The notes under the pieces are model-generated. The model was not told the origin of the DNA and searched no databases. It was given only the letters and a program-made list of their open reading frames with translations. A program made the position numbers and the translations under genes. 34,612 nt of DNA from NCBI RefSeq assembly GCF_014696925.1, contig NZ_JACJQY010000053.1:1-34612 (forward strand), read 5' to 3'. Within the stretch, counting starts at the first letter, position 1. Each line of letters begins with the position of its first letter. The DNA comes from Phormidium tenue FACHB-1050. GTDB taxonomy: Bacteria; Cyanobacteriota; Cyanobacteriia; Pseudanabaenales; Pseudanabaenaceae. Shown one piece after another: positions 10,069-30,594 of this stretch.

Positions 10069-10129
10069 TGTGATGTTTCCTGTTTGAATTTATGTGTTCT
10101 AACATGGTCGGCACTTTGCGCCGCCCATC

Positions 10130-10934: not shown

Positions 10935-10958
10935 ATGTCGTATTTTAATATACGACAT
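10935..10958. promoter_or_regulatory. Palindrome at the parA promoter (candidate operator or parS)
   Basis: Arms ATGTCGTAT and ATACGACAT are perfect inverted repeats separated by six AT bases. The site is 14 bases upstream of the parA ATG and is a near copy of the palindrome at 11038-11065. Placement suggests a repressor or ParB binding site controlling the par operon. Confidence 0.6.
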
Positions 10959-10965
10959 AAAGCCC

Positions 10966-11008
10966 AAAAAAGTTATGGCGCACGCTTCGCGTGCGCCATA
11001 ACTTTTTT
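10966..11008. terminator. Strong hairpin, 20-bp stem with a 3-base loop, between the two par palindromes
   Basis: The stem reads A-run, then GTTATGGCGCACGC, loop TTC, then the exact complement and a T-run. With A and T runs on either side it could terminate transcription in both directions. Its core GGCGCACGC-TTC-GCGTGCGCC also recurs, in varied form, in hairpins at 12102 and 13902, so it may be a member of a dispersed palindromic repeat family. Confidence 0.65.
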
Positions 11009-11037
11009 TGGTGTTTGATGCTAGATTGGCAGTGATA

Positions 11038-11065
11038 GTATGTCGTATTTTAAAATACGACATAC
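11038..11065. promoter_or_regulatory. Perfect 28-bp palindrome upstream of the cupin gene (second par-type site)
   Basis: A perfect dyad containing ATGTCGTATTTT and its complement, centred near 11051. It repeats the site at 10935-10958. It lies 40 bases before the cupin ATG, so the divergent parA and cupin genes each carry a copy next to their start. Confidence 0.65.
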
Positions 11066-14120: not shown

Positions 14121-17100
14121 GTTTCAATCCCTAAAAGGGTTTCAGAGGCCTTGAATCCCTTGCATAGTCCAAAATCACTTGAGCAGGTTTTGTTTCAATC
14201 CCTAAAAGGGTTTCAGAGGCTTTGAAGCCAAGCTAGCTCAAGAGGCAGAGCTAGCCGCATTCAGTTTCAATCCCTAAAAGGGTTTCAGAGGCTTTGAATC
14301 AAGATACGTATATCTCCGATCTCTCTGTTCATCAGGTTTCAATCCCTAAAAGGGTTTCAGAGGCTTTGAATCATCAAAAGAAATGCTTCCAGATCTGGTA
14401 GTCGCTCGTTTCAATCCCTAAAAGGGTTTCAGAGGCTTTGAATCTGAGAGTCCTGCCCGTGCTTGACCAGGGGTAAACCAGTTTCAATCCCTAAAAGGGT
14501 TTCAGAGGCTTTGAATCAAGCATTAATGAATACGTTGAGGTTTGCTGATTCTGTTTCAATCCCTAAAAGGGTTTCAGAGGCTTTGAATCCACAATAGCCT
14601 TAAGTGCAGGTCTACTTGCAATTGTTTCAATCCCTAAAAGGGTTTCAGAGGCTTTGAATCTCCAAGCTATCAAGCACGCGATCGCCACATCGAAAGTTTC
14701 AATCCCTAAAAGGGTTTCAGAGGCTTTGAATCACTTTGTTGCTGGCGATTGGAGCGCGCCGCTTGGGCTGTTTCAATCCCTAAAAGGGTTTCAGAGGCTT
14801 TGAATCGTCCGCCGCGTCCGTCGATGCTTACAACGTTTCCGTTTCCGTCTGTTTCAATCCCTAAAAGGGTTTCAGAGGCTTTGAATCAGGGTTTGTAGCT
14901 TCTCTCACTTGCGTGAATTTGGAGTTTCAATCCCTAAAAGGGTTTCAGAGGCTTTGAATCATTGTCCACAAGCTCTGATTGTTTGCAATGGCTACGTTTC
15001 AATCCCTAAAAGGGTTTCAGAGGCTTTGAATCATTGGATAAGCTCTCGCAATGCAAATAGAATTAGTTTCAAAGTTTCAATCCCTAAAAGGGTTTCAGAG
15101 GCTTTGAATCTCAAGTTCAGTTTGCAAAGTCTTGATATCAGTTTCAGTTTCAATCCCTAAAAGGGTTTCAGAGGCTTTGAATCTGGTTTAGTTGTTTTTG
15201 TTTGGTTTCACTTATTATGTTTCAATCCCTAAAAGGGTTTCAGAGGCTTTGAATCATAATCGACAAAATTATTTCATATGCTCATATCGGCGAGTTTCAA
15301 TCCCTAAAAGGGTTTCAGAGGCTTTGAATCATCGGCGGCTTTGCAAAGAGCGCAACTGAACTTTGCCCCTGTTTCAATCCCTAAAAGGGTTTCAGAGGCT
15401 TTGAATCTGAAAATGTCTAACCTCACACCTGAACTCAAAAGTTTCAATCCCTAAAAGGGTTTCAGAGGCTTTGAATCCGCCTTTCTTGTATGAAATAGAA
15501 AGTATTTTAATTGTTTCAATCCCTAAAAGGGTTTCAGAGGCTTTGAATCATCGGATTAAGGCGACTGTAGCGTCCACAAATGTGGTTTCAATCCCTAAAA
15601 GGGTTTCAGAGGCTTTGAATCCAGCATCAAAAACGTCTATCCCGTTGGAAGTAGTGAGTTTCAATCCCTAAAAGGGTTTCAGAGGCTTTGAATCCAACGG
15701 AGATTCAAGATTTTGAGGTTTACAGCTCAAGTTTCAATCCCTAAAAGGGTTTCAGAGGCTTTGAATCGATTGTAAACATCAAAGATCCAATCATCACCCG
15801 TGTTTCAATCCCTAAAAGGGTTTCAGAGGCTTTGAATCGATCCACCACAGGATCAACTTAAAGGATCACCTTGTTTCAATCCCTAAAAGGGTTTCAGAGG
15901 CTTTGAATCAATATCGGAGAGCCCATAGGCTAGGGTCATCAAATGTTTCAATCCCTAAAAGGGTTTCAGAGGCTTTGAATCAGCAATACGAGCGCGCTTC
16001 GACTGCGCCTCAGCCACGTTTCAATCCCTAAAAGGGTTTCAGAGGCTTTGAATCCGCTGTAATCAAGTCCCTGAATCGGTGAAGATCTCTGTTTCAATCC
16101 CTAAAAGGGTTTCAGAGGCTTTGAATCTAAGTTGCTTAGTTAATAAACTTTTACCATGGATGTTTCAATCCCTAAAAGGGTTTCAGAGGCTTTGAATCAA
16201 TGGCTGCAATTTCTCCTTGCTTGGCACACCAGCGTTTCAATCCCTAAAAGGGTTTCAGAGGCTTTGAATCGAGATGATATCAAATTAAGATTAACGGAAG
16301 CAAAGTTTCAATCCCTAAAAGGGTTTCAGAGGCTTTGAATCAGTATTTCAGTATTTCTAAATAGTTGTTAATCATGTTTCAATCCCTAAAAGGGTTTCAG
16401 AGGCTTTGAATCCCCAAAGGGGCAGGGCGCAAACCTAGCCCCGATCCGTTTCAATCCCTAAAAGGGTTTCAGAGGCTTTGAATCAGGCAAATCAGCAAGC
16501 ATCGAAGCTCGCCTTTGATGTTTCAATCCCTAAAAGGGTTTCAGAGGCTTTGAATCAGTGTGCGTAATGCTTTTGAAGTACCGCTATACCCGTTTCAATC
16601 CCTAAAAGGGTTTCAGAGGCTTTGAATCAAACCTGAACAAAGTTGGGTAGCGGTCGTATAAAAGTTTCAATCCCTAAAAGGGTTTCAGAGGCTTTGAATC
16701 AAAGGTTATACCCCAAATGTAAATGGGAACGTTTTGTTTCAATCCCTAAAAGGGTTTCAGAGGCTTTGAATCCCTAATCGCTTTGTGAAGTCATCTTTTC
16801 TGGCATTGTTTCAATCCCTAAAAGGGTTTCAGAGGCTTTGAATCTTCGGCAAGCTTGGTGAATACTTCGTCCCTACTACGGTTTCAATCCCTAAAAGGGT
16901 TTCAGAGGCTTTGAATCTTCTCAAAGTCTTCTCTATCCTTCCTAAGTTGAGCGTTTCAATCCCTAAAAGGGTTTCAGAGGCTTTGAATCAGTCCCACCGC
17001 CACTACGCACCAAACCGCTAGTAGTTTCAATCCCTAAAAGGGTTTCAGAGGCTTTGAATCGATATTAGTGCAATCATGCCGAGGATACCGTTAATGTTTC

Positions 17101-18655
17101 AATCCCTAAAAGGGTTTCAGAGGCTTTGAATCGCTGAGGGTGGTACTTTGCGATCGCAGAAATTGGCAGTTTCAATCCCTAAAAGGGTTTCAGAGGCTTT
17201 GAATCATCTTGTATTTCGCAAAGCAAGAGCGTTTTTAGCACGTTTCAATCCCTAAAAGGGTTTCAGAGGCTTTGAATCTTACCATGTTCAATATCGCGGA
17301 TGGACTAGCTCCAATAAGTTTCAATCCCTAAAAGGGTTTCAGAGGCTTTGAATCTTATAGCTGCTGTGAGCGTCGTTGTAGCTGTCGTGTTTCAATCCCT
17401 AAAAGGGTTTCAGAGGCTTTGAATCTAATCAATACACGATATCTATAGCGCCCTTTTTTGTTTCAATCCCTAAAAGGGTTTCAGAGGCTTTGAATCCTAT
17501 GGTGATTGATTACAAGTCTTTGGGAGAATCTGCGTTTCAATCCCTAAAAGGGTTTCAGAGGCTTTGAATCAGTTTAGAAGTAATCGTCATCAATCACTTT
17601 CTTTGTTTCAATCCCTAAAAGGGTTTCAGAGGCTTTGAATCTGCCAATGTTTGCCATGTTCAGCTAGTTTTCTGTAGTTTCAATCCCTAAAAGGGTTTCA
17701 GAGGCTTTGAATCACTTCGTGTCTGCATCGCTTAGTATGGTGGTAGTAGGTTTCAATCCCTAAAAGGGTTTCAGAGGCTTTGAATCGTTCTCAATTTTTC
17801 CATAGCGCCGCCATCGTTAGCGGTTTCAATCCCTAAAAGGGTTTCAGAGGCTTTGAATCGCGTATTTGTGTCGCCTTTCCCTAATGAAGATGTGTTTCAA
17901 TCCCTAAAAGGGTTTCAGAGGCTTTGAATCGTGCAACCCCCGTCAGAGTCACCACCGTACAGTTGTTTCAATCCCTAAAAGGGTTTCAGAGGCTTTGAAT
18001 CCATTGAGTAATATGGCTATCAAAAAGTACGAATCTGTTTCAATCCCTAAAAGGGTTTCAGAGGCTTTGAATCACAAGTCTCTCAAGAGGCAGTTGGGCG
18101 AACCTTTTGTTTCAATCCCTAAAAGGGTTTCAGAGGCTTTGAATCTTTAATCCTATCTTCCATATCCTTGGTACAAGATGGTTTCAATCCCTAAAAGGGT
18201 TTCAGAGGCTTTGAATCCATTACTCATGCAAGGTGAAGGGTCAAACGGTAAAGTTTCAATCCCTAAAAGGGTTTCAGAGGCTTTGAATCATAAACATCCA
18301 TGTCACCACAGGGGCAAGTTTCGTGTTTCAATCCCTAAAAGGGTTTCAGAGGCTTTGAATCCGATTATCGCCTTAATTGCTTCTAATACTCAGTTTGTTT
18401 CAATCCCTAAAAGGGTTTCAGAGGCTTTGAATCGGATCGCGCACATCCGCCAAGCAAGCGAGTGGCATTATGCGTTTCAATCCCTAAAAGGGTTTCAGAG
18501 GCTTTGAATCTTCTTCGCCCATGGCATTCAAATTGGAGATCATTGGTTTCAATCCCTAAAAGGGTTTCAGAGGCTTTGAATCGAGAAATTCGACTGGTTA
18601 GACGAAGGCTCTAGATACGTTTCAATCCCTAAAAGGGTTTCAGAGGCTTTGAATC
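14121..18655 (-). CRISPR. Type I-D CRISPR array, 63 repeats and 62 spacers
   Basis: The 37-base repeat begins GTTTCAATCCCTAAAAGGGT and ends TTCAGAGGCTTTGAATC on the plus strand. I counted 63 copies with spacers of 33-44 bases, mostly 34-36. In the reverse orientation the repeat ends ATTGAAAC, the usual 5' handle of type I crRNAs, and holds a CCCT-TTT-AGGG stem-loop for Cas6 cleavage. Transcription is therefore leftwards. Only the two leftmost repeats deviate (C at 14150, G at 14227), as expected for the old, leader-distal end, while the right end is intact next to the leader and cas2. The spacer at 14807-14850 is unusually long (44). Two spacers (14661-14695 and 17133-17168) contain GCGATCGC. 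Confidence 0.97.
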
Positions 18656-18922: not shown

Positions 18923-19195
18923 TCAAGCGAAAAATATTGTATTATCTCGCACCTGTTCACCTCCAATACGTTCTATTTTAGGCTGACAGCAAGCACATAG
19001 CATATAAAAACGGATACTATCCTCATCAGGCTTGATTAGCTTACTCAAACGCGATCGCAATTTTGCATATTGAGCATCCGTCAGCTCACACTCAAACACA
19101 CTAAACTGCATCCATTGCCCATAGGATTTGAGAATCTTATGAATCTTAGTACGGCGCTTATCTTCAGAAATATCGTAGGAGATGACTAGGAACAT
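18923..19195 (-). CDS. cas2: Cas2, CRISPR adaptation endoribonuclease-fold protein
   Basis: A 90-residue protein with the Cas2 ferredoxin-like fold. It starts MFLVISYDISEDKRRTKIHK, with the conserved Asp after the first beta strand (YDIS), then KSYGQWMQFSVFECELT and a C-terminal IRFYMLCACCQ strand. It forms the Cas1-Cas2 integrase core that inserts new spacers. It is the last gene of the cas operon, three bases after cas1, and directly next to the leader. Confidence 0.95.
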   Translation of the reverse strand: MFLVISYDISEDKRRTKIHKILKSYGQWMQFSVFECELTDAQYAKLRSRLSKLIKPDEDSIRFYMLCACCQPKIERIGGEQVRDNTIFFA

Positions 19196-19198
19196 AAT

Positions 19199-20203
19199 TT
19201 ATTTCAAAACCAAAGGAGGATACTTATCCGTCTCATCCATTAGATACTTAGCCAACAGCCTAGCCTGAAGCTCAAACGCCTCCTGATAAGTACATTTACG
19301 CCCCATCACAGGATGCTTAAATTCTGACTGTTTCTTCTGCTCGTACAGCGTCAAAAATACTTTTCTCGCTTCATTAGACAGAGAAATTGCCTTACTCAAA
19401 GGCTCAGCAGTAAAATCTTTAGGCGCGATCGCCTTACGATTAATTGCCGACAGAACGATCGCATCAACAATCAAGGGGCGAAACTCCTCCATCAGATCGA
19501 GGGCAAGACTGGGACGACCATAACGCTCCGTATGCAAATAACCAAGATAGGGATCGAAACCGACAATATTTAGCGCCCCCTGTACATCATGACGTAATAG
19601 AGAATAGCCAAAACTCAACATTGCATTTACAGGATCAGTCGGTGGGCGGCGGTTGCGAGTCGTAAAGCTAAAACCATCGGCACGAATTAATTTCGGGAAG
19701 GCTTGCCAATAGACAGCGCTGCCATGTCCTTCCACACCCCGCAAACTAGGAATTTCCTGATGCAGACTAATCGAATTGATCGCCTGTTCGAGAGCATTAA
19801 TCGCTTTCTGTAAATCATTATCAGGATAATCCCGCAGATGCCGCATCAATGACGCACGATAATTCTTTAACTTACCGCGCACAAAAGCTTGCACTATATG
19901 GATCGCCTTCGGAGTTTCTCCTGCTGCATTCCACTGCGATCGCCTTACAAAAATATTTTTAGTTAGCTCAGGTTCTAAACGCCCCAAAAAGCGCCCTGTT
20001 CCAGTCATGAAGGACATCGGGATTTTTCGCTCTAGCAGTTCCATCACTGCCGCAGGTGAAATTGTCGCCCGACCGAGGATTACCAACCCATCAATTTTGA
20101 TTAGTGGAATATCTAGGATTTGCTTTTTCTCAGCCTTTACCGTTAAGCGTTCATCGGTCTTGCCAATAAACGAGTCATCCTGACTTACATAAACCGTTCC
20201 CAT
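19199..20203 (-). CDS. cas1: Cas1, CRISPR spacer integrase
   Basis: A 334-residue Cas1 with an N-terminal beta domain (MGTVYVSQDDSFIGKTDERL) and an alpha-helical catalytic domain. The metal ligands are visible as Glu158 in GVEGHGSAVYW, His224 in GYLHTERYGRPSLALDLMEE, and acidic residues near 236-240 ahead of FRPLIVD. Length and motifs are normal for type I-D/I-B-like Cas1. It lies five bases downstream of cas4 and three upstream of cas2, so the adaptation genes form a tight cassette. Confidence 0.96.
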   Translation of the reverse strand: MGTVYVSQDDSFIGKTDERLTVKAEKKQILDIPLIKIDGLVILGRATISPAAVMELLERKIPMSFMTGTGRFLGRLEPELTKNIFVRRSQWNAAGETPKAIHIVQAFVRGKLKNYRASLMRHLRDYPDNDLQKAINALEQAINSISLHQEIPSLRGVEGHGSAVYWQAFPKLIRADGFSFTTRNRRPPTDPVNAMLSFGYSLLRHDVQGALNIVGFDPYLGYLHTERYGRPSLALDLMEEFRPLIVDAIVLSAINRKAIAPKDFTAEPLSKAISLSNEARKVFLTLYEQKKQSEFKHPVMGRKCTYQEAFELQARLLAKYLMDETDKYPPLVLK

Positions 20204-20208
20204 TGCTT

Positions 20209-20793
20209 TTAAGCTCCTTCCTTATATTTACTAACCTTTTCCTTCGCCATCGGTACACACTGAGTAAACAGGCTGCAACCCTTACAGCGATTGTCATAGA
20301 TTGCAGGAGGCATCTTGCCAGTCTCCATCATTTGTGTGATTTCGGTAATCATTGCGATCGCCTCTTTTCGCAACTCAGCCGTAATCTCAATCTCCTGTCT
20401 TTGGTGCGTTTGAGCATAATAAACATATCCCTTAGCAATGCTTCTTCCCGTCATCTCTTCTAAACAGAGCGCTTGAGCCACAACTTGCATCGCATCGTTA
20501 TCCCACTCACCTTTATGTCCACGTTTATATTCAATGGGATAGAGATTGCCATCAACTTCTTCAATCAAATCTGATTTGCCAATCAAGCCATATTGTTCCG
20601 ACTTCAGCCAGATCGCTCTGATTTGCCAAGTCTCCTCTCGTTGATTTTCGCCAACTGTATGCACGCGCTGATGTAAATCCGTCCCCTCAATTGTGAAATG
20701 ATTTTCCACAAACTCCCCCGCACAAAACATCCGCCAGCACCGATGAGGGCAATAGGCATATTGGTTTAAAGCGGCGATGGGGATTGGTTCCAT
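20209..20793 (-). CDS. cas4: Cas4, RecB-like Fe-S exonuclease of the adaptation module
   Basis: A 194-residue Cas4 that processes pre-spacers and helps select the PAM. An N-terminal cysteine group (C15, C19, C24) and the C-terminal trio C170, C173, C179 in NRCKGCSLFTQC would hold the [4Fe-4S] cluster. The RecB-type nuclease motifs are GKSDLIEEV (Asp) and LYPIEYKRGHKG (Glu and Lys). The start MEPIPIAALNQYAYCPHRC is typical. The ATG is separated from the upstream four-helix-bundle gene by a heptamer repeat tract that begins four bases before the start codon. Confidence 0.95.
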   Translation of the reverse strand: MEPIPIAALNQYAYCPHRCWRMFCAGEFVENHFTIEGTDLHQRVHTVGENQREETWQIRAIWLKSEQYGLIGKSDLIEEVDGNLYPIEYKRGHKGEWDNDAMQVVAQALCLEEMTGRSIAKGYVYYAQTHQRQEIEITAELRKEAIAMITEITQMMETGKMPPAIYDNRCKGCSLFTQCVPMAKEKVSKYKEGA

Positions 20794-20796
20794 GAT

Positions 20797-20831
20797 GGTG
20801 ATTGGTAATTGGTAATTGGTGATGGGTGATT
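20797..20831. repeat. Heptanucleotide tandem repeat, five units, left arm
   Basis: Exactly five 7-bp units of the form GGTGATT / GGTAATT / GGTGATG lie between cas4 and the four-helix-bundle gene. They are an inverted version of the seven-unit tract at 21207-21255, so the two could pair as arms of a long stem around that gene. Confidence 0.8.
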
Positions 20832-20842
20832 ATTTTTCTTTC

Positions 20843-21202
20843 TTATCTATTTAGGGAGTTTAGGTAGGCGTTGAGTTTTGGGAGTAGTGGGTTTAGAATG
20901 GATTTAAGTTTTTGGACTTGTTCGGGTTTTAGAAGTTTGCGGCGGTAAGCTAGTCTGAGCCAACTGGTTGTTTCATAGAGTGAACCTCTTGCAATTCTGA
21001 TAAATCTTTGATTGTCTTTTAAACTTCCTCTTCCTCGTCCTTCGGCAATATTCGCGCAAACACTATCTGCCGATCGCACAATTTGTTTGCCCACAGTATC
21101 TTTAGCAAACTGATCCCACAAACTCACCATATCCCATACCTCATTAGCCAAACTTTCTGCCAACTGATAAACTTCCAAATCCTCAAAATCAGGTCTACCC
21201 AT
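20843..21202 (-). CDS. Four-helix-bundle protein, 23S rRNA intervening-sequence (S23/IVP) family
   Basis: The 119-residue protein reads MGRPDFEDLEVYQLAESLAN, then VGKQIVRSADSVCANIAEGR, the two hallmark segments of the family. It ends with helical KPEQVQKLKSILNPLL. Members are found inside rRNA intervening sequences, as scattered solo genes and near diversity-generating systems, and the molecular role is unproven. I take ATG 21202 rather than an in-frame TTG at 21208, which belongs to the heptamer repeat. It sits between cas6 and cas4 on the same strand, framed by inverted heptamer tracts, and looks like an insertion in the cas operon. Confidence 0.88.
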   Translation of the reverse strand: MGRPDFEDLEVYQLAESLANEVWDMVSLWDQFAKDTVGKQIVRSADSVCANIAEGRGRGSLKDNQRFIRIARGSLYETTSWLRLAYRRKLLKPEQVQKLKSILNPLLPKLNAYLNSLNR

Positions 21203-21206
21203 AACC

Positions 21207-21255
21207 AATCACCAATCACCAATTACCAATTACCAACTACCAACTACCAATTACC
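21207..21255. repeat. Heptanucleotide tandem repeat, seven units, right arm (contains the cas6 stop)
   Basis: Seven consecutive 7-bp units of the form AATCACC / AATTACC / AACTACC. The last four codons and the stop of cas6 (GSW and TAG at 21239-21237) are read from this tract. It is complementary to the tract at 20797-20831. Confidence 0.8.
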
Positions 21256-22112
21256 CGCCTAACCATTCCCATCCCCATCGTCGTCTTCCTTCCAATTCCT
21301 GCGAACATCGCAAAATCTGCTAGAGCGTTAATTTGTTTGATTGTCTCTGGTGAGGCATCACCGAGAATCCGATAGCCAATTTCGCCAACACAACCGATAA
21401 AACTATGGGTGTCATAGTTTTTGACTACTTCTGTTTTAATCTCAAAACGGCTAGGAAAGATATATTCGATAATTTCGGGACTGATGGGGATTTCGCTGTA
21501 GGTATTCCAGCGATCGCATAGACTTTTAAATACATTGTCGCGAGTTGGCAATGGCGAATCATATTTACCCTGACGGAAAGCGGTGGGAGTGGCGAGGTGA
21601 AAGGTAATGTTTCGTTCAGTTTCGGAAGCGCGATCAAAAATTTGTTGATAGGTCGCAAAATTTGACCATGGCTGACTCGATTGAGGTGTGCCAAGAATAC
21701 TGGTGATATAGAGGTCGGCGGAACCGAGATGAAAAGCGCGATCGGGGTTAAGATTGAGCCATAGACCTGTGAGTTTGCTAAAGAGAACTTCATCTAAAAG
21801 GGAGATGCGCCACCAGCAGGGAGTTGAGGGAGAGATTTCTTGATGATGCCAAGAGAGGCTTTTAGCTTTTAGCTGTTGGCTGTTAGCTTTCTTTAGTTGT
21901 GGTTTATTCAAGTTCCTATCATAGCTAACCGCCAATTGAATTGGACTCAACCCAAATCCTTTATTCGCTTTTTCACCATGCAGGCGATCGCCTAATTCTT
22001 TATCTACAGAACTAACTAAGGTTAAAAAAAGTGCATGAATATGCCGTCCTGTTAGGTATTCAGGATAAATCGGCGTTTTCGGCATGAAATTTACAACGAG
22101 ACTATGGGGCAT
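21237..22112 (-). CDS. cas6: Cas6, crRNA-processing endoribonuclease (type I-D)
   Basis: A 291-residue Cas6 that would cut the repeat transcript at the base of the small hairpin and leave the ATTGAAAC handle. The N-terminal RAMP fold includes YLTGRHIHALFLTLVSSVDK, containing likely catalytic His residues. The C-terminus has the glycine-rich loop IGRKTTMGMGMVRR. Residues about 74-86 (KKANSQQLKAKS) are encoded by a heptamer repeat tract (21857-21891), a probable in-frame insertion between the HGEKANKGFGLSPIQ region and the following conserved strand. The stop lies inside another heptamer tract. It starts four bases after the Uma2 gene. Confidence 0.92.
   Translation of the reverse strand: MPHSLVVNFMPKTPIYPEYLTGRHIHALFLTLVSSVDKELGDRLHGEKANKGFGLSPIQLAVSYDRNLNKPQLKKANSQQLKAKSLSWHHQEISPSTPCWWRISLLDEVLFSKLTGLWLNLNPDRAFHLGSADLYITSILGTPQSSQPWSNFATYQQIFDRASETERNITFHLATPTAFRQGKYDSPLPTRDNVFKSLCDRWNTYSEIPISPEIIEYIFPSRFEIKTEVVKNYDTHSFIGCVGEIGYRILGDASPETIKQINALADFAMFAGIGRKTTMGMGMVRRVIGSW
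21857..21891. repeat. Heptamer repeat inside cas6, five units
   Basis: Five 7-bp units in series: GGCTTTT, AGCTTTT, AGCTGTT, GGCTGTT, AGCTTTC. They code for a Lys/Gln/Ala-rich loop in Cas6. Two further units of the same class (AGCTAAC, AGCTAAT) occur near 22702-22715 between the Uma2 and 115-aa genes. Confidence 0.75.
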
Positions 22113-22115
22113 ATT

Positions 22116-22670
22116 CTATAACTCGACATCTTCATAAATATCTGAAAGGGCGATCGCTAAATCAATTGACTGCAACTGTAAGATTTCTCCCACACTTAAG
22201 GATTGGACTAACCAACCTTCAGGATCACGGCGATAGAGTTCTACTTTGATTTCAGACTGAGAAACTAAGACGTATTCTTGCAAAGTTTCCAATTTCTGAT
22301 AGTTGAAAAGCTTTTCTCGCCGATCTAGCATGGCTGTGGAAGGAGATAGAACTTCGATTAAGAGACAAGGTTTTTGCTTGACATAGGGATCGCTATCAGT
22401 GCGATCGCAAACTACCATCACGTCAGGGTAGTAGGTGGCGTTATTTGCCGAGGCGATCGTGAGTTTCATCGCTAGAGCTAACAACCGAGAGCCAGTACCG
22501 CGCAAATGTGGATGGATACAACCAACTAAATTGCCAACAATCAAATTATGATTTTCATCTTCCTCAGCCATTGCAAAAGCTTGTCCATTTACAAACTCAT
22601 GCTTAGTGAGGCTAGTTTGTTCGTAGGCGAGATATTCTGAGTAGGTTAGGTCTGGGTGTCTAGCAAGCAT
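22116..22670 (-). CDS. Uma2-family (DUF820) PD-(D/E)XK endonuclease-like protein
   Basis: The 184-residue protein belongs to the family hugely expanded in cyanobacteria. The opening LTYSEYLAYEQTSLTKHEFV and the nuclease-fold residues are visible: Asp in YYPDVMVVCD, Glu in CLLIEVLSPST, and Lys/Asp in LDRREKLFNYQKL. The role of these proteins is not established, though they are often suspected to be nucleases linked to mobile DNA. It lies in the cas operon between the 115-aa gene and cas6. A C-terminal fragment of a second Uma2 copy lies upstream of cas10d at 30656-30712. Confidence 0.9.
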   Translation of the reverse strand: MLARHPDLTYSEYLAYEQTSLTKHEFVNGQAFAMAEEDENHNLIVGNLVGCIHPHLRGTGSRLLALAMKLTIASANNATYYPDVMVVCDRTDSDPYVKQKPCLLIEVLSPSTAMLDRREKLFNYQKLETLQEYVLVSQSEIKVELYRRDPEGWLVQSLSVGEILQLQSIDLAIALSDIYEDVEL

Positions 22671-22721
22671 TTGCCATATCCTTAAAATATATTCTATTTC
22701 ACAGCTAACAGCTAATCGCTC

Positions 22722-23069
22722 CTAATCCAAAAGTCCCGATCGCTCTAAAATCCGATCTGACCAGATCTGTGCTTGTGCTGCAACTTCCATGCGTTGTGCT
22801 GGATCTGCCCAGATTTTTGTCCAGCGCAATTGCCACAATGCAAGCTGAATCTGTAATTCCACGAGTTCGCCAGCCGTGTCGATGTCAGCATCACTAGCTG
22901 TCCATTCGATGAAAAACTTGCTTTCTCTGATCAAGTATTCAATAGTATTTTGGCTGATTGCCTTACCTGTCAAGGTTTTGATTCGAGCTAGATTTGCTGA
23001 TAGTCCACCTAAACGGTTGGGGAGCAAATCACTTAAATATCTTGCTTTTAATGTATTCCAATCTTTCAT
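22722..23069 (-). CDS. Conserved cyanobacterial hypothetical protein (115 aa)
   Basis: The protein begins MKDWNTLKARYLSDLLPNRL, then LSANLARIKT and a helical ESKFFIEWTASDAD region, and ends ILERSGLLD. It is all-helical and resembles a family I recall from many cyanobacterial genomes with no known role. Its ATG overlaps the stop of the DUF5674 gene by four bases (ATGA), so it is translationally coupled to it. There is no catalytic motif, signal or membrane segment. Confidence 0.75.
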   Translation of the reverse strand: MKDWNTLKARYLSDLLPNRLGGLSANLARIKTLTGKAISQNTIEYLIRESKFFIEWTASDADIDTAGELVELQIQLALWQLRWTKIWADPAQRMEVAAQAQIWSDRILERSGLLD

Positions 23070-23401
23070 AGGTTACTCAATAGATTTTTGGCAATTTCTT
23101 CGATTTTTACACGAACGTCTGGAATTAGAACCTCTAGTGTTCTATTACCCTGTTTTGGACGAATATTAATTAGAGATTCATAAGTTACCTCTTGAGCATC
23201 TGGATACCAATCGGCTCCCCAAATATTTTGTTGTTCACTACCATCTTCTAGCAAAACGCTCTCACAGTCAGCATGAAATTCACCGCCACCTGCTAAAATT
23301 CCACGTTCAATATCGACGGCTAACTTGATATATTCACCAAGTTCTTGCAGCATTTCGTCAATTTGTTCTTTAGTAGCGCGATCGCGAATTAAGTAAATCA
23401 T
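23066..23401 (-). CDS. DUF5674-family protein (111 aa)
   Basis: The hallmark stretch LAVDIERGILAGGGEFHADC, followed by ESVLLEDGS, NIWGADWYPD and YESLINIRP, identifies the family. Conserved Glu, His, Asp and Cys residues in this core look like a possible active or metal site, but no function is known to me. A strong Shine-Dalgarno (AGGAGG) sits inside the end of the preceding 49-aa gene, and the start overlaps its stop (ATGA). It is the middle gene of a coupled trio placed between cas3' and cas6. Confidence 0.85.
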   Translation of the reverse strand: MIYLIRDRATKEQIDEMLQELGEYIKLAVDIERGILAGGGEFHADCESVLLEDGSEQQNIWGADWYPDAQEVTYESLINIRPKQGNRTLEVLIPDVRVKIEEIAKNLLSNL

Positions 23402-23578: not shown

Positions 23579-25963
23579 TTAGACAATCCAATATTCTAAT
23601 TTTTTCTCTAGTGCATAAAGATATCTTTGAATTCTCGAACCTAAAATATAAGCATTAGTTCCTATAACTGCATGATATTTAACGACTTTAGAATCTGGAA
23701 AAGTAACTGCAATTAAAGGATAGCTAGTCTGCATATTTCTTGTTTTACCTTGTATTTCTCCTAAAGCACCTCCTTGCTCTGGAAATAAAAGACAAGTAAT
23801 ATATTGTTCTTTTATCGCATCTGTAAGGCTTGGAGAAAGTGACAATGAAGATTGATCTTTTTTCTTAGTAGCTATTATTTTTAGACCATTTATAGCAATT
23901 GGTTTGTCGCAGTAGCGCCGATTAAATAATTCTTTTTCATGCTGAGTCTCCAAAGCAAATGAAATGATTAAGCTTTCTTCTTTTTCTTTATAGCTAGTTA
24001 CTTGGCAATAAAGATCAGATTCATTTACATAAATACCATCACTAAAAGACGTTAGAAATTCTTTGTGTGATTTATACCAACGTAAATTGTAATATTTGAG
24101 CAAATGAAATAGATCGTAATAAACTACTGGATCGCAATCAGAAATCACATTATGAGGATCGTAAACTGCACAAGATAATGATTGAAAAGAATCTCTAAAA
24201 CTAAACAAGCTTTGTAAAGCATAATATTCTTCGAGGGTATAGTTTTTTATTTGATTAATAGAGTTACTTTTTTTCTCTTTCAATGCTTTTTTAAATGAAG
24301 CAAAAAGATTTTCATCAACCTGATTCGTTTTGTTCATCCAAAATAAGACACTATTTAAAAACTCACGAACTAACTGATCGCTATAATTTTCATTGTTTTT
24401 AGCAGCTTGCAAAGAATTAAATCTTGCAATACTGCCTACATAGTAGCGATACCCTCTTTTACTATTGGGTGCAAATATTTCTCTAACTCTCTCAAACACC
24501 TCTTGGATACGCTCTTCTGACCTAGTTTGTTGCCTGAGTTCGTATAGTGGGCGGAACGACTCAAGGACTGAATACGAGCTTATGTATTCATTTAGAAAAG
24601 GTTTTTGAGGAAAAACACTCAAACTAGGCGATAGCAATAAGTTTTTTAATTGCTTTCTAGATAAAGAAGAGTTAGTTTTCAACTGATTCTGCAACTTAGC
24701 AAATATTTCAGATGAAACTAAAGCAATAGATTCAGACTGTATATCATTTTGAGGTTTGCCAAGAACACGTCCTGTTCTTCCCAAGCGTTGCCAAAACTCA
24801 TCAGCATATTTTGCTGTAAAAACTACAAAGTCTAAATTCTGTCGAGTCTTAGTCTGTTTGACAAAGTTATAACCGATATCTACAGTTGGAGTAGCAACAA
24901 TTAATGGCTTTTTAGCTGATTGTTTACGTTCCTTTCGAGAAACTGCTCCTGTAATTCTGCCAAAGTCTTGCTCAGCATCCAGACCACATTTTTTTAAATG
25001 CCCAACTGCTCGATTAACGTCAATGAGAGAATAACTAATTAATGCACCATCTAGAGAGTTTTGGATACGATGTTTTATCTCAGATGCTTTTAAACTTAGA
25101 TAGTTATCTAAATCATCCGATTCACAGAATTGTAATTTTACAGGCGCTAAAGTTCTTATAGCTCTAGAATGATTTGAGTCAACCTGAATAGGAGCAACTT
25201 CTTTCCACTGAAGCCCCTGACTACTTAATCTATCTAGATATTTGTATACTTGTTCGTCTGGTGTTGCCGAAAGCAAACATATTTTTCGGTTTTCATGTTG
25301 AAAGTATCCAAAATCGAGAGATAGCGCCAAGAAAAAAAGAAAATTAGCTAATTGTTTTGCATTATAGTAATGAAATTCATCAATAATGATGTATTCAAAA
25401 GATGCAAATATTGTTTCAAAAAGGTTACGCTTATCCAATCTGCTATAACAAGCATAAAGACTGTAATAAAACAGATCAGGATTAGTCACAAGAATGATAG
25501 GTCTTCGTAAAGCTCTCTCTTCTTCTGGAATTCCTAATTGTTCCGCAAATTCTAAAGGATTAGTTATAAGCCGATAAAATCTCTCTCCCTGTCGATGTAG
25601 TTCATTTTCGGGATCTATCGCTCGAATTGCTCTTGCATCAGCTTTGCAGACAAGATGTTCCAATTTAGAATTTTTGACAAATTCTTGAACATCTTCATAG
25701 TGCTGATCGATTAATTCATTTGTTGGTGCAATAAATAGAGTTTTTGCTTTTGGATTATTCAATAAGTGAAATAGTGCAGCTTTAGTTTTACCTGTTCCAG
25801 TAGGAAATGTATTTAAAACTAGGTCATAATCTTTCTGAAACTGACAAGTTTTGACTTGATGATCTAAAGGGCTACTAACACACGCAAGAATTCGTCCTGA
25901 AACTTCAGACAAATCTGCTAACAGTTCATAGTGTGGCTCAAGTTCTATCTCTATTGTTTTCAT
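23579..25963 (-). CDS. cas3': Cas3', type I-D helicase without HD domain
   Basis: This is a superfamily 2 helicase of 794 residues from the preferred ATG at 25963. The longer frame from 26005 overlaps csc1 by 38 bases, while this ATG lies four bases after the csc1 stop. Walker A is FPTGTGKT (53-60), motif II is IIDEFHYY (D195-H198), motif III is LLSATP (230-235), and motif VI is RLGRTGRVLGK. No HD nuclease precedes the helicase, as in type I-D where the HD domain belongs to Cas10d. It would unwind target DNA after Cascade binding. It follows csc1 in the operon rather than leading it. Confidence 0.93.
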   Translation of the reverse strand: MKTIEIELEPHYELLADLSEVSGRILACVSSPLDHQVKTCQFQKDYDLVLNTFPTGTGKTKAALFHLLNNPKAKTLFIAPTNELIDQHYEDVQEFVKNSKLEHLVCKADARAIRAIDPENELHRQGERFYRLITNPLEFAEQLGIPEEERALRRPIILVTNPDLFYYSLYACYSRLDKRNLFETIFASFEYIIIDEFHYYNAKQLANFLFFLALSLDFGYFQHENRKICLLSATPDEQVYKYLDRLSSQGLQWKEVAPIQVDSNHSRAIRTLAPVKLQFCESDDLDNYLSLKASEIKHRIQNSLDGALISYSLIDVNRAVGHLKKCGLDAEQDFGRITGAVSRKERKQSAKKPLIVATPTVDIGYNFVKQTKTRQNLDFVVFTAKYADEFWQRLGRTGRVLGKPQNDIQSESIALVSSEIFAKLQNQLKTNSSLSRKQLKNLLLSPSLSVFPQKPFLNEYISSYSVLESFRPLYELRQQTRSEERIQEVFERVREIFAPNSKRGYRYYVGSIARFNSLQAAKNNENYSDQLVREFLNSVLFWMNKTNQVDENLFASFKKALKEKKSNSINQIKNYTLEEYYALQSLFSFRDSFQSLSCAVYDPHNVISDCDPVVYYDLFHLLKYYNLRWYKSHKEFLTSFSDGIYVNESDLYCQVTSYKEKEESLIISFALETQHEKELFNRRYCDKPIAINGLKIIATKKKDQSSLSLSPSLTDAIKEQYITCLLFPEQGGALGEIQGKTRNMQTSYPLIAVTFPDSKVVKYHAVIGTNAYILGSRIQRYLYALEKKLEYWIV

Positions 25964-25967
25964 GTGT

Positions 25968-26759
25968 TTAGATTGTTGATTGAGGTCGTAAACATTCGAC
26001 ACCAAATTTCATTCCTGCTGGCAACCACAAATCTTTAGATAGCTGGAAGAAATCACAAGTTAGAAATGAATTCCGAATTAAAGGAACTGGATGAATACTA
26101 TAGGTGTCATAGCTTGCTACTTCTACTCCTGTGGGTAGGTCTAAAGGATTAAGAAGGAAATTAGTAAACTGAGACTGTTTACTTTCAATTTGCGGATTTT
26201 TATGGATAGTAGTATCTACTCGTGCCTTACTCATAAATTTTCCCAGCCTAATATACCGAGGAATAGTCAAGTCATTCTGAGAAATCACGAAAAAATCCAG
26301 TACAGTGTTAATTCTCATCGCTTTAATGAATCCTACTTGAGGATAATTAACAGCTTTTTCATGTTTTTTTTGTTCTCCAGTTTGTTTGTCAATCCGAGTC
26401 CAAACCTTCTGCGAACTCAAGACCATTTTATGACCACTGGGGCGCTGTACAAGGCAGTTTTTGCCCATAGCAAACCAATATGTATCTGGTACAGAGTTGA
26501 ACTGTGAGAATGAAAACTTAGCTTCTTCATTCGGTGGGATTGTTGCAGGAGTAACATATATTCCCTGCTCATTTAGACTACTTAGATGCTCATAGTAGTA
26601 AATCTCACCAGTATTTTTGTATGGAGATTGTGCTAATCCAAGAGCGTAGGTTAGAGCATAATTTCCGACAAGTGGTTCTGTTAAGTAGAGATCGTTAATT
26701 TCTCGACTAGCAAAAAAAGTGTTTTCTAGTAAAGTCAACTTGCAATGGTAAACCAACAT
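25968..26759 (-). CDS. csc1: Csc1 (Cas5d), type I-D Cascade subunit
   Basis: A 263-residue RAMP protein that would cap the 5' handle of the crRNA in the type I-D complex. The family features include the opening MLVYHCKLTLLENTFFASRE, LVGNYALTYALGL, TYWFAMGKNCL and the late EVASYDTYSIHPVPLIRN segment. It is three bases downstream of csc2. Length is normal. No truncation seen. Confidence 0.92.
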   Translation of the reverse strand: MLVYHCKLTLLENTFFASREINDLYLTEPLVGNYALTYALGLAQSPYKNTGEIYYYEHLSSLNEQGIYVTPATIPPNEEAKFSFSQFNSVPDTYWFAMGKNCLVQRPSGHKMVLSSQKVWTRIDKQTGEQKKHEKAVNYPQVGFIKAMRINTVLDFFVISQNDLTIPRYIRLGKFMSKARVDTTIHKNPQIESKQSQFTNFLLNPLDLPTGVEVASYDTYSIHPVPLIRNSFLTCDFFQLSKDLWLPAGMKFGVECLRPQSTI

Positions 26760-26762
26760 AGT

Positions 26763-27713
26763 TTAAATATCCCCATATGAATTAGACAAACGCTCAAAGA
26801 AAGACTGCGGATCTTGATAAATTTCTTTGACCTCATTGAGGAGTGTATTTAATTCATCTTGAGGAAGAACCTCATAACGTCCAATTACATTTTGAATAAG
26901 TTCTTCAGAATAACCGAGAGTAGCTTGTTGTAGAACATCATCAGATAGAGGGAAATCAGGTTCATCTTCTGGTTTGTGTTGTGTCAAAACATCATAGACA
27001 CCTTGAGTTAGTTCCAACGTGCTGAAAATTTCTGTATCACTAAAGATAATCTGAGCAATTGTGTTTTTCACCTTGCCGATACGAGTAGCGATCGCTCCAT
27101 AGCGGCTGGAACGCAAAATGTTTCCTAGAACATAAAATAGCTCATCAGGAGTGACATCTTTGAGGGTTTCAATATCTAGAAAATGGGTTTCTGGACGTAC
27201 ATACTCACTATTAAACAAGCTCTCAGAAGCTTTGCCTGAAATATCTCTCATTGTGCCTGTTTCATACAGAGCGTTAGAAGTCCGTCTGTCTAAAACTTGA
27301 CCTGTGGATAAAACCGAAAAAGCATCTTCTGTAATTACTCTCGATCTTCTAGCTCCACCTTGACCAACTGCAAAACCATACAAATAAGCGTCAATGGAAG
27401 AATCGACAACAGTACCATCTTCGTTCAAGCATGGTAAATTATTCTTGCGAAGATCTTCACGTCCAGTCCGTCTCTCAACAGCCGTTTGCTTTCTCTTGGT
27501 TATGACTACTCGTTGAATTGGATCGGTCTGTCGCTTTTTGACTCCAGCTTGAACAAATTCTCGACATAATGGCTCGCCACTACCCTCAGTACGAAAAATT
27601 GCTTCTGACTGAGTTTTACGAATAATGATTAGATTGACATACCGACCAGTGGGATAATCAGCATGGTGGTCAAGCAAAAATTTGGAATACTTGGGTTGCT
27701 GTAAAATACTCAT
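26763..27713 (-). CDS. csc2: Csc2 (Cas7d), type I-D Cascade backbone subunit
   Basis: A 316-residue Cas7-type RAMP protein that forms the crRNA-binding filament. Family segments include YPTGRYVNLIIIRKTQSEAI, a basic REDLRKNNLPC region, DAYLYGFAVGQGGARRSRVI and THFLDIETLKDVTPDELFYV, then SRYGAIATRIGKVKNTIA. The ATG overlaps the stop of the small 143-aa gene in a GTATGAGTA junction, with a GAGGAAA Shine-Dalgarno just before it. Confidence 0.94.
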   Translation of the reverse strand: MSILQQPKYSKFLLDHHADYPTGRYVNLIIIRKTQSEAIFRTEGSGEPLCREFVQAGVKKRQTDPIQRVVITKRKQTAVERRTGREDLRKNNLPCLNEDGTVVDSSIDAYLYGFAVGQGGARRSRVITEDAFSVLSTGQVLDRRTSNALYETGTMRDISGKASESLFNSEYVRPETHFLDIETLKDVTPDELFYVLGNILRSSRYGAIATRIGKVKNTIAQIIFSDTEIFSTLELTQGVYDVLTQHKPEDEPDFPLSDDVLQQATLGYSEELIQNVIGRYEVLPQDELNTLLNEVKEIYQDPQSFFERLSNSYGDI

Positions 27714-28141
27714 ACATTTTCCTCGTCTGTTTCTTCTTTAGGCGTGATTTCGTTTCTGATATAAAACAAGTAAGCGGCTTTGATGATTTTTTCATCTGGC
27801 ATCAGTTTAGAAAGCTTACCTCCATAGATACCTTGTAAAAGGTCTACAAAAAAGCAATCGACAAATTCTTCAACCCTCAGACGTTTTTCACGTCCAGGCT
27901 TAAATTGTGGTTTTGTGGGATCGTGAATTCTCTCCAAATAAGTGAAAATCTCAGTGACAATCGCTGCTTGCAAAGTATCAAGATCTAATAATTGTTGTTG
28001 CCTCCTTAAATGATCAAAAACTTCGTTGATAGGCATCAGAAGAGGACTTCGTTTTAATCCTTTTCCTTTAATTTTTGCCTTCCAAGCAATAGCTGCCATC
28101 TTTTTGATGACCATTGAAGCAATGGGTTTATTTGTACTCAT
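27710..28141 (-). CDS. Probable standalone type I-D small subunit (Cas11d-like), 143 aa
   Basis: The gene sits between cas10d and csc2 and overlaps both by ATGA (GTATGAGTA at both junctions). An AGGGAG lies about eight bases before its ATG. The product is basic and helical: MVIKKMAAIAWKAKIKGKGL, then NEVFDHLRRQQQ, and a C-terminal block RVEEFVDCFFVDLLQGIYGG followed by KLSKLMPDEKIIKAAYLFYI. That block resembles the C-terminal region of full-length Cas10d, which in studied type I-D systems is also made separately as Cas11d by internal translation. Here Cas10d is shorter (818 aa) and the small subunit has its own gene. The homology is judged from pattern memory, so the function is an inference. 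Confidence 0.65.
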   Translation of the reverse strand: MSTNKPIASMVIKKMAAIAWKAKIKGKGLKRSPLLMPINEVFDHLRRQQQLLDLDTLQAAIVTEIFTYLERIHDPTKPQFKPGREKRLRVEEFVDCFFVDLLQGIYGGKLSKLMPDEKIIKAAYLFYIRNEITPKEETDEENV

Positions 28142-30594
28142 ACGTTACTCCCTGACATAACAATTTGATCCATCCATGTTTTGAGCTTTCTTGTTAGACC
28201 TCTGGCGGCAGAGTCTTTATCAATACCTTGTTTACTCCTTTTACTTATATGAGCAGCTTTTTTTTCGATCAAGCGATCTACTACAAAAAAGATCTGCCCT
28301 TCACCTCCAGAAAATGCTTCCGCCACAGCCACCAATTCATTCTCTTTTGTTTCATTAAGCCAAAGTAAATCACACATTTCTCGAATAGCGTGTAATCTTT
28401 GCCAGAGTATATCTCCAGATCCTAAAGGTTCTGTATTTTTGTCACGACAGAAATATAAGTTTTCTGATGGAACTAATCCTCTTAGTAAAGAAGGGACACC
28501 ATCCAAGAAAATGTCTATTTCTTGTGATTCAGTTAAATTCATAATCGGAAAAGCTAGTTCAGACAATAAAATTTTGACTCCAAAGTGTTTGTATAACAGC
28601 AAAGCATACTCAATGGCATTCAAATATTTTTCTGTTTGATTATTGCCAAGAGGATTTAATGGTAATGAAATTACGTTTCCTACTAGATCAGAAAATTTTG
28701 GCACTAGAATACCTCCAGCTTTTTGATGCTTAATTGGCAATACACAATATTTTTGATTACTAAAAAACTGTATCGCTTCTTTAACAGATAAACTAACTGC
28801 TGAAACATCGATCTTACTTAGCTTCTGAAAAAGAGATTTGAAGCTTTCGATAAATGGAGCAGTCATAAAAGAGTATGGCATTAGGTGGAGGTAAAGAGAT
28901 TTGTCCCCACCAGATATATAATTCAATTTTTCAATTGAAAATTGTTGTTGAACAATAGGATCAATGTATCTTTTTGGTTCGCTTTGGCTACCTGCTAGTA
29001 GTCTATTTGAGAACTGCTGTACTTTAATTCCTTTGAGTACACTTGGGGACATCCATTTTGATGCTGAAAAACTTGAACTGGCATAACAAGACTGTCTGTT
29101 ACGATCTTGGCAATATGTTTGAAAGTTTTGGGAAAAATCTTGAATTGAAAAATTGTCAAAATCAAAAGAGAGATTGTTAATCACATAAGTAGCTATATGA
29201 CTATTTAAAGATGTTTCCTGAGTTATAGTTTCTAGCTGTTCTTGTTTTTCATTATTCATTAAATTATCTAATTCTTGAGAAATTAATCCCAAAAGATAAT
29301 CATATGTAATATTTTCAAGATATTGGGCAACTACATAAGAACGATGAAAATTCTGATCAAATACATCATATCTGTCTGAATTTTCAATTTCCAACAATAA
29401 ATTCAAATATTTCCAAGGATTACTGAATTCTCTGTTTTTACTAATTAGAGACTGCTTACAATGCTTACTTAAAAAGATATAAAATGTTCTCAATAATTCT
29501 CCAAGTCTCATTAAATCTTGATCTTGAGGAAGTATCCTCGGCTTCTGTAACCACTCTTGAATTACTTCTTGGTGAAGAGATTTAGGATCTTTAAGTGTTT
29601 CTGATAGTTTATTACGGTAAGCCTGTTCAAGTTCATCAACTTTGTAGCTCTTTCTCTGAATTAATGTGTTGACATAAGCAAATATTTCATCGTATGTCAG
29701 TCCTAGTTCTAAAACTTCACCATCAATCTTAATTCCCTGATTTCCAGCTTTGATAAATTTTCCATATTCTTCGGCTTTCATTTGATGAACTTTTTGTTCT
29801 ACTCCTTGGCTAATAGTAAGACGATCTTGATTGGTTAAAGTCAAATCCAAACCTACAGGAGCGAGGTAATGAGTTCCTTGGGGATATAAAAATATTGGCA
29901 AAGCATTAAATTTTTCTTGTAAAAATTCAGAAACTTGGTTGTGAATTATATTAGTTAATATTCCTCTTTGCTCCGTTATTTGATGAGCAACAAGCTGATA
30001 TTGCTGCACTGTAAATCTATTCAAATGACTTAAAAAAGCTCGCTTGTGTTTACGCTCTGAATAGCTTTGGGATAAATCAGCAACATCAGCAGCTCTAATA
30101 ATTTCATCTAGCTCTGTTAGTCTTCTTTTCCCCAGTTTGGTAGGATCAGAACGGCGATCTAAAGAATCACCACGAACACTGTTATGTCCTGAATGACCAC
30201 GAATTAACTCAGTTATATCCTCAATGAAATCTCTCCAATCTTCTAAAAAAACATCAAATCCAATTTTCTCGATTTCCTGAACTACATTTTTAGGCACAGC
30301 AATTTTGCCATAGCTTGTCTCAGCTCCTTGATAAGTTTTATTGATGTCATGAACGCAAAACGCAATAGTTAGAACTTTGAGGTCAATAGATGAGAGATTT
30401 AAAATTTCTTGTAAAGAATGAATTAGGAAAACTCCAGATACAACATGGTTGTAAAGTGATTGCCCTTTATGAACCCCGTACTGAACTACTTTTTGATATT
30501 GTTGCAGACCTTTATTAGCTACCTCTTCAATAAAAAGAGATAGTACAGGACGTTCTTCTATTCCCAGAAATTCAAGCAATTCACTGTCTGACAT
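28138..30594 (-). CDS. cas10d: Cas10d (Csc3), type I-D large subunit with HD nuclease
   Basis: The 818-residue protein is the signature of type I-D. The N-terminal HD domain shows NHVVSGVFLI (H50), AFCVHDINK (H82, D83), RGHSGH (H134, H137) and AADVADL (D170), all needed for the DNA nuclease. A middle motif YISGGDKSLYLHL near residue 563 could be the relic of the palm-like region without a full GGDD. The protein ends in a basic TRKLKTWMDQIVMSGSNV, shorter than typical Cas10d; the missing C-terminal part seems to be the next gene (27710-28141). AGAGG precedes the ATG. It is the first gene of the roughly 11.7-kb minus-strand operon. Confidence 0.9.
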   Translation of the reverse strand: MSDSELLEFLGIEERPVLSLFIEEVANKGLQQYQKVVQYGVHKGQSLYNHVVSGVFLIHSLQEILNLSSIDLKVLTIAFCVHDINKTYQGAETSYGKIAVPKNVVQEIEKIGFDVFLEDWRDFIEDITELIRGHSGHNSVRGDSLDRRSDPTKLGKRRLTELDEIIRAADVADLSQSYSERKHKRAFLSHLNRFTVQQYQLVAHQITEQRGILTNIIHNQVSEFLQEKFNALPIFLYPQGTHYLAPVGLDLTLTNQDRLTISQGVEQKVHQMKAEEYGKFIKAGNQGIKIDGEVLELGLTYDEIFAYVNTLIQRKSYKVDELEQAYRNKLSETLKDPKSLHQEVIQEWLQKPRILPQDQDLMRLGELLRTFYIFLSKHCKQSLISKNREFSNPWKYLNLLLEIENSDRYDVFDQNFHRSYVVAQYLENITYDYLLGLISQELDNLMNNEKQEQLETITQETSLNSHIATYVINNLSFDFDNFSIQDFSQNFQTYCQDRNRQSCYASSSFSASKWMSPSVLKGIKVQQFSNRLLAGSQSEPKRYIDPIVQQQFSIEKLNYISGGDKSLYLHLMPYSFMTAPFIESFKSLFQKLSKIDVSAVSLSVKEAIQFFSNQKYCVLPIKHQKAGGILVPKFSDLVGNVISLPLNPLGNNQTEKYLNAIEYALLLYKHFGVKILLSELAFPIMNLTESQEIDIFLDGVPSLLRGLVPSENLYFCRDKNTEPLGSGDILWQRLHAIREMCDLLWLNETKENELVAVAEAFSGGEGQIFFVVDRLIEKKAAHISKRSKQGIDKDSAARGLTRKLKTWMDQIVMSGSNV

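Follow-up and report, generated by a model that had tools for sequence, protein, structure and literature searches.

The minus strand of contig NZ_JACJQY010000053.1 from the cyanobacterium Phormidium tenue FACHB-1050 carries a complete type I-D CRISPR-Cas (clustered regularly interspaced short palindromic repeats and associated genes) locus, array included. The stretch analysed, here called the window, is the whole contig of 34,612 nucleotides (nt), part of a 5.6-Mb assembly (GCF_014696925.1). The locus reads cas10d, a gene for a protein of 143 amino acids (aa), csc2, csc1, cas3', cas6, cas4, cas1 and cas2, and then the array. Its type I-D assignment rests on TIGR03174, TIGR03157, TIGR03159 and TIGR03158, each of which exceeds its own cut-off, on a separate cas3' and on HD and helicase motifs that are kept. 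The system is presumably an ordinary I-D defence that targets double-stranded DNA. Taken as a whole, the evidence is best explained if the 143-aa gene encodes the small subunit Cas11d as a gene of its own, beginning at what is likely an old internal start of cas10d, and this explanation is considered very probable.

The first-pass annotation of this DNA had described a 143-aa gene with its own Shine-Dalgarno (SD) sequence and an ATGA overlap behind an 818-aa cas10d, in a frame one base off, and the sequence agrees. On the minus strand, cas10d (30594..28138) and the 143-aa open reading frame (ORF; 28141..27710) share the 4 nt ATGA, the two frames are one base apart, and GGGAG lies at 28152..28148. 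The gene for Csc2 (27713..26763) likewise overlaps the 143-aa gene by 4 nt. Rather than an internal in-frame start of cas10d, cas11d is a separate ORF in the other frame, and cas10d stops at its start codon.

Homology of the small protein to the Cas10d C-terminus

On the PADLOC profile PDLC01588 (859 positions), Cas10d aa 7-786 take positions 5-714 and aa 9-141 of the small protein take positions 736-858, the latter with an E-value of 1.1e-31. To the NCBIfam Csc3 model (946 positions) the small protein has a weak match, E 0.003 and 15.6 bits with a cut-off set at 60, which falls where it should, on 818-935. Pfam gives no family for it up to E 1, and phmmer finds no match to it in the PDB up to E 10.

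A hidden Markov model (HMM) was built from 24 fused C-termini of class A only, class A being our own label for cyanobacterial I-D loci with a cas10d of ~900 aa, csc2, csc1, cas3', cas6, cas4, cas1 and cas2, and was searched against all ORFs of at least 60 aa in 41 loci. The model finds the small protein of the window at E 1.5e-18. Its matches up to E 10 are the 24 fused proteins and four small ORFs, with nothing besides; the four small ORFs score 56-63 bits, compared with 12 bits for the best of 4000 shuffled copies. Alignment of the small proteins with the fused class-A C-termini by hhalign gives a probability of 98.5. The small protein of the window is 23-30% identical to the fused C-termini, and eleven columns (G26, R31, P37, L69, Y106, D116 and A122-F126) are invariant across 28 split and fused sequences. 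Judged by these alignments, the small protein is homologous to the C-terminal domain of Cas10d. When the large subunits of the split loci are searched with a profile of split and fused Cas11 sequences, this domain is not detected.

An AlphaFold2 (AF2) model made on the 28-row alignment of split and fused sequences has a predicted local distance difference test score (pLDDT) of 82.8 and a predicted template modelling score (pTM) of 0.78. The top four Foldseek matches among 350,542 chains are the type I-D chains 7sba_J, 7sbb_I, 7sba_I and 6yes_B, of which 7sba_J, a chain of 146 residues, is by its length Cas11d. With VIA-align, the model falls on residues 826-975 of Synechocystis Cas10d (7sba_I; Z 14.4) and on residues 718-844 of Sulfolobus Cas10d (6yes_B; Z 9.6), while the best unrelated row has Z 6.2. 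The predicted fold of the small protein is that of the Cas11 domain. Both the resemblance to the Cas10d C-terminus noticed at first pass and the natural split of large and small subunits proposed there are upheld by the homology and the predicted fold.

The cas10d-cas11d junction

Each of the four split genes that are known here, in the window and in three further genomes described below, has GGAG, 6 nt and ATG, and in each of the four loci the cas10d frame runs into the TGA within ATGA. In one of them (G129), a TAG 29 nt upstream ends cas10d earlier, so that cas10d and cas11d do not overlap. An in-frame stop lies 5' of the cas11d ATG, two codons away (TAA) in three genomes and six codons away in L029.

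The Met that begins cas11d in the window is aligned with a Met in 23 of the 24 fused class-A Cas10d proteins, and is one residue off in the remaining one. A match of at least 4 nt to an SD-like motif stands 5' of this aligned Met in 21 of the 24 fused genes (19 with GGAG at a spacing of 6 nt, two with AGGAG at a spacing of 4 nt), compared with about 11% of 190 other Met codons. The aligned Met and the motif before it likely mark the internal Cas11d start in the fused relatives. In the window and in the archaeon Halococcus dombrowskii, a Met of the cas10d frame stands 17 nt away from the new ATG, which was set aside as coincidence; L029 is without that Met, and in L030 it is one residue off.

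Occurrence of the split gene

A survey of cyanobacterial loci for the same split found a stand-alone cas11d in three more genomes, two of them metagenome-assembled genomes (MAGs), with proteins 55-63% identical; the four split genomes are placed in different families. The genome samples that follow overlap one another. A search of 386 genomes across the phylum with the small protein matched 27 genomes at 28 places, two of them stand-alone (the window and G129) and 26 inside ORFs of 897-1161 aa. In the G129 family, 13 of 61 genomes match, one stand-alone and 12 within ORFs that span 562-936 aa, the 562-aa one lying on a 6-kb contig; in the family of the window, 5 of 38 match, one stand-alone and four in ORFs of 893-988 aa. 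Scanning of genome contigs with Csc2 gave six loci: two stand-alone, in an Acaryochloridaceae MAG (L029) and a Scytonematopsis contorta MAG (L030), three with a single cas10d ORF, and one that does not reach cas10d. At E 1e-90, Csc2 matches three of 388 genomes of the class: the window, G129 and G852, the last being the same contig as L029 to judge by length and coordinates. Among the best 10 candidates per genome in 388 genomes of the G129 order, only G129 reaches E 1e-20. The small protein has no tblastn match up to E 0.01 in plasmids and phages, where near relatives of the window may be omitted, and viral contigs searched with Csc2 and with the small proteins held no relatives. The ratio of nonsynonymous to synonymous substitution (dN/dS) of cas11d is 0.26, 0.22 and 0.07 in the three of six pairs with an estimable dS. 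The stand-alone arrangement is a real, conserved and rare variant.

An archaeal parallel comes from 21 plasmid records with a related Csc2, in 18 of which the cas10d region was inspected (16 by annotation and two as loci L074 and L070). One of the 18 is split: H. dombrowskii NZ_CP095009.1 (L108:2994-5929) has a cas10d of 833 aa and a coding sequence (CDS) of 145 aa with a 4-nt overlap, both annotated as cas10d. In each of the remaining 17, a single CDS or ORF of 886-1158 aa occupies that place. On PADLOC PDLC02023 (964 positions), the H. dombrowskii pieces take positions 22-823 and 822-961. In three haloarchaeal relatives Cas10d is fused, and the C-termini there show 47-56% identity. MAFFT did not place the small start on a Met in all three; with a gap shifted by eye, the start falls on a Met in two of them and misses a Met of the third by three residues. 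GTGATC, an archaeal-type SD sequence, stands 5 nt 5' of the small ATG. This split may be a recent event or an error, because it is seen in one genome and the frame of the small gene is open for 33 codons upstream. It is apparently of separate origin from the cyanobacterial one, given that its near relatives are fused. Recurrent fission of cas10d at its internal cas11 start is put forward, with a minimum of one event in cyanobacteria and one in haloarchaea, every event leaving an ATGA overlap and a large subunit without Cas11; this proposal is reasonably likely to be right.

Weighing of alternatives

A number of observations tell against a conserved, separately encoded Cas11d derived from a fused gene. 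AF2 run from the four split proteins only gave a poor model (pLDDT 49.5), the Foldseek E-values of the top four matches run from 0.04 to 0.6 and all E-values exceed 0.001, and helical models may reach Z 13-14 in VIA-align by chance. The fold match is also not independent of the homology, because the AF2 alignment included the fused C-termini. Three of the 24 fused genes have no SD-like motif at the aligned Met, and the 21 that have one are not 21 independent cases, because the fused genes are relatives of one another and GGAG also codes in part for a conserved Leu-Glu. In L030, cas10d has a further frame break at 9254-9270, ~300 nt upstream of an intact cas11d, which is either an assembly error or decay; in L029 (11727-15948), cas3' has merely 684 aa and is followed by ORFs without a match to the cas queries and then by cas6. 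With a cas10d break in one of these MAGs and a short cas3' in the other, some copies may be decaying. The array of the window as a whole has no match in a phage collection. The Csc2 tree has Thermotogota, not class A, adjoining the split clade (93/83), the trees carry long-branch warnings, and an approximately unbiased (AU) test does not reject the split clade as the first branch (p 0.30). An A7 run was considered as the cause of the L030 break and rejected, given that the break lies away from the run.

An ordinary fused cas10d with an indel introduced in sequencing or assembly, or with a frameshift that disabled it recently, would show two frames one base apart, as in the window, and the L030 break attests that breaks do happen in cas10d. 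This is nonetheless very improbable, since the same split is found at the same sequence position in four genomes of different families, an SD sequence and an upstream in-frame stop precede the cas11d ATG, and dN/dS is well below 1 in three pairs; the single-base indel mentioned at first pass is, as an error in a normal gene, not supported. Programmed ribosomal frameshifting could still yield a full Cas10d-Cas11 fusion beside the separate product, in keeping with frames that overlap by 4 nt. No -1 slippery heptamer lies within 80 nt of the junction, and the 120 nt upstream hold none in three genomes and a single one, at -84, in L030; the cas11d frame is closed by a stop 2-6 codons upstream, so that a shift has next to no room, and G129 has its extra cas10d stop. 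A read-through fusion is unlikely because stops stand in both frames at the junction, and a joined product made by frameshifting seems hardly possible; this alternative, too, is given very little credence. Instead, a helical accessory protein of unrelated origin might have taken the place of the domain and be what the 143-aa gene encodes, as an identity of just 23-30% to the fused C-termini would allow, but the colinear profile match, the eleven invariant columns over 28 sequences, the same start position and the same predicted fold make this extremely improbable.

The first-pass annotation had left it between an ancestral and a derived split. A two-gene arrangement could be ancestral, as in type III, which has separate small-subunit genes according to a passage of PMC3150331, with the fused form and its internal start made by later fusion in other I-D lineages, and the AU test leaves room for this. 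The four split loci form one group in the trees of Csc2 (99/98), the Cas10d core (SH-aLRT, the Shimodaira-Hasegawa-like approximate likelihood ratio test, 100) and Cas3' (100/99). In the Cas3' tree, which was rooted on 11 other Cas3 helicases and had class A thinned to 13 rows, the loci labelled class B branch first and the split clade stands with class A and Thermotogota (92/94). Fused Cas10d is seen in class A and in haloarchaea, where the one split lies amid fused relatives, and weakly in class B, whose C-termini reach 6.6-13.3 bits against the profile (L075 has no match); a passage of PMC7689449 gives the fused form for Sulfolobus. The class-A-only C-terminus HMM finds neither class B nor Thermotogota. 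Thermotogota have cas10d as a single ORF of 829-863 aa with no ORF between cas10d and csc2, and the C-terminus of one such Cas10d (L032, 732-854) gives 0.5 bits with the Cas11 profile and 1.7% with hhalign; on a Chloroflexota plasmid, cas10d is a single full-length ORF. An ancestral split is thus unlikely, and an origin of stand-alone cas11d by fission of a fused cas10d, not the reverse, is favoured by these comparisons and not proven, the derived part of the earlier either-or being preferred while the AU test withholds proof of direction.

A proposed route to two genes

Under fission, the ancestor would have had cas11d as an in-frame internal gene of cas10d. The frame of the large subunit would have been shifted by a small insertion or deletion close to the former ribosome-binding site, such that cas10d came to end at the TGA inside ATGA, and the old SD sequence and ATG would have kept producing Cas11d, now from an overlapping downstream gene. 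Translation of cas11d would be coupled to that of cas10d by termination and reinitiation at ATGA. The minor filament of the complex would then be made wholly of free Cas11d copies, and Cas10d would dock Cas11d without a covalent link, as type III Cas10 does with Csm2 or Cmr5. The best reading of the outcome is a type III-like two-gene arrangement, in which split Cas10d and Cas11d would assemble into a working complex.

Locus context

Table 1. Features of the type I-D locus in the window.
Feature	Position	Strand	Basis
cas11d, stand-alone small-subunit gene, 143 aa	27710..28141	-	PADLOC Cas10_Id, fused-C-terminus HMM, AF2 model
cas10d large subunit, 818 aa, TGA stop, HD motif HDINK kept	28138..30594	-	TIGR03174, PADLOC Cas10_Id
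Shine-Dalgarno-like GGGAG	28148..28152	-	its GGAG 6 nt 5' of cas11d ATG
TAA stop in cas11d frame, two codons 5' of ATG	28145..28147	-	sequence
csc2 (cas7d)	26763..27713	-	Pfam Csc2 2.2e-99, TIGR03157
csc1 (cas5d)	25968..26759	-	TIGR03159 E 2.7e-42
cas3' helicase, TGTGKT, DEFH and QRLGRTGR motifs	23579..26005	-	TIGR03158 E 3.3e-58 and motifs
cas6	21237..22112	-	Pfam, NCBIfam, PADLOC scans
cas4	20209..20793	-	Pfam, NCBIfam, PADLOC scans
cas1 (type I-D Cas1d)	19199..20203	-	TIGR04093 E 4.2e-131
cas2, 90-aa ORF	18923..19195	-	adjoins cas1; matches cas1-adjacent ORFs in other loci; assigned by position and likeness
CRISPR array, 63 repeats of 37 nt, 62 spacers, 53 of them 34-36 nt	14121..18655		repeat analysis

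The two halves of the locus resemble different hosts. The genes cas6-cas4-cas1-cas2 (18923-22112) resemble those of genus-mates with other I-D effectors, and the genes from cas10d to cas3' resemble those of distant hosts. The window cas1 scores ~700 bits with the genus-mates L074 and L075 versus 473-483 with the split loci L030 and L052, and csc2 scores 478-504 bits with the split loci versus 142-256 with the same genus-mates. To judge from these scores, the effector module has probably moved, with its split, between hosts that retained their own adaptation genes.

The whole array matches four plasmid records, two of which cover 98-99% of it when repeat and spacer matches are taken together, and it resembles arrays on Pseudanabaena plasmids. 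Non-cas ORFs interrupt the locus, one of 121 aa between cas4 and cas6 (within 20843-21208) and others of 184, 115 and 111 aa between cas6 and cas3' (within 22116-23401). Elsewhere in the window lie a RarA/MgsA-type AAA ATPase (6736-8937), whose C-terminal extension is weakly methyltransferase-like (under the Pfam cut-off), ParB-like and ParA-like genes (8947-10921) and a repeated palindrome (10935-11064). The ParA/ParB-like genes and the palindrome suggest that the contig is a plasmid; its ends have no terminal overlap of 20-200 nt. Rfam gives no match at the gathering threshold in 13900-34612.

Comparison with known systems

Internal translation of Cas11d was reportedly described by McBride et al. 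in 2020. In the I-D systems studied, according to passages of PMC10212523 and PMC9123187, Cas11d is an internal product of cas10d, and the minor filament of Synechocystis has two free Cas11d copies and the Cas10d domain (in a passage of PMC9123187). One passage of PMC7689449 speaks of 'the lack of a cas11 gene in the type I-D systems', and one of PMC3150331 has the small subunit absent from the operons of these subtypes. Those parts of the open-access literature that were searched contained no report of a cas11 that stands alone naturally in type I-D. Passages of PMC10212523 describe the line of descent of Cas11 in type I systems as unknown and offer a model in which a separate cas11 gene arose via duplication in some of them; a second copy was not seen here. 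For type III-H, a passage of PMC12669027 has Cas11 apparently taking the place of the Cas10 C-terminal domain.

The split loci are a natural comparison of fused and separate Cas11 forms. Part of PMC9123187 proposes that the covalent Cas11 domain couples recognition of the protospacer adjacent motif (PAM) to movement of the minor filament, and the split loci would allow a test of whether that domain is needed for such coupling. The split clade also offers a large subunit evolved without an attached Cas11 domain, which bears on the use of I-D systems for editing: in figures from part of PMC10212523, Synechocystis I-D edits at 5% if Cas11 is expressed separately and at 0% if it is not, whereas Microcystis I-D edits without separate Cas11. 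The split suggests a route from one gene that makes two proteins to two genes. If fission is recurrent, these loci would be living examples of separate cas11 genes arising from a gene within a gene, and free subunits would make up the whole minor filament of Cascade in such lineages.

In short, the window cas11d shares with Synechocystis Cas11d (7SBA) a homologous domain, a likely start position, a predicted fold and the operon context, and differs in being its own gene in the other frame, next to a large subunit in which no copy of the domain is detected. Class-A loci have the same gene order and the top median bit scores for the Cas10d core, Csc2, Csc1 and Cas3', but their Cas10d is fused, with a likely internal start, and median identity is ~23% for the Cas10d core and 46% for Csc2. 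The I-D locus of H. dombrowskii (NZ_CP095009.1) has the same split boundary and 4-nt overlap, and is archaeal and known from a single genome. With type III Csm2/Cmr5 and the III-H Cas11 described in part of PMC12669027, the window has in common a gene of its own for the small subunit, next to that of a Cas10-like large subunit. No profile match to these proteins was found, the Csm2 and Cmr5 families being absent from the Pfam, NCBIfam and PADLOC scan results for the window proteins, and the likeness in fold to type III small subunits is weak, at Z 4.5-5.7 (8bmw_E 5.7, 9l7d_G 5.2, 4gkf_A 4.6 and 2zop_F 4.5).
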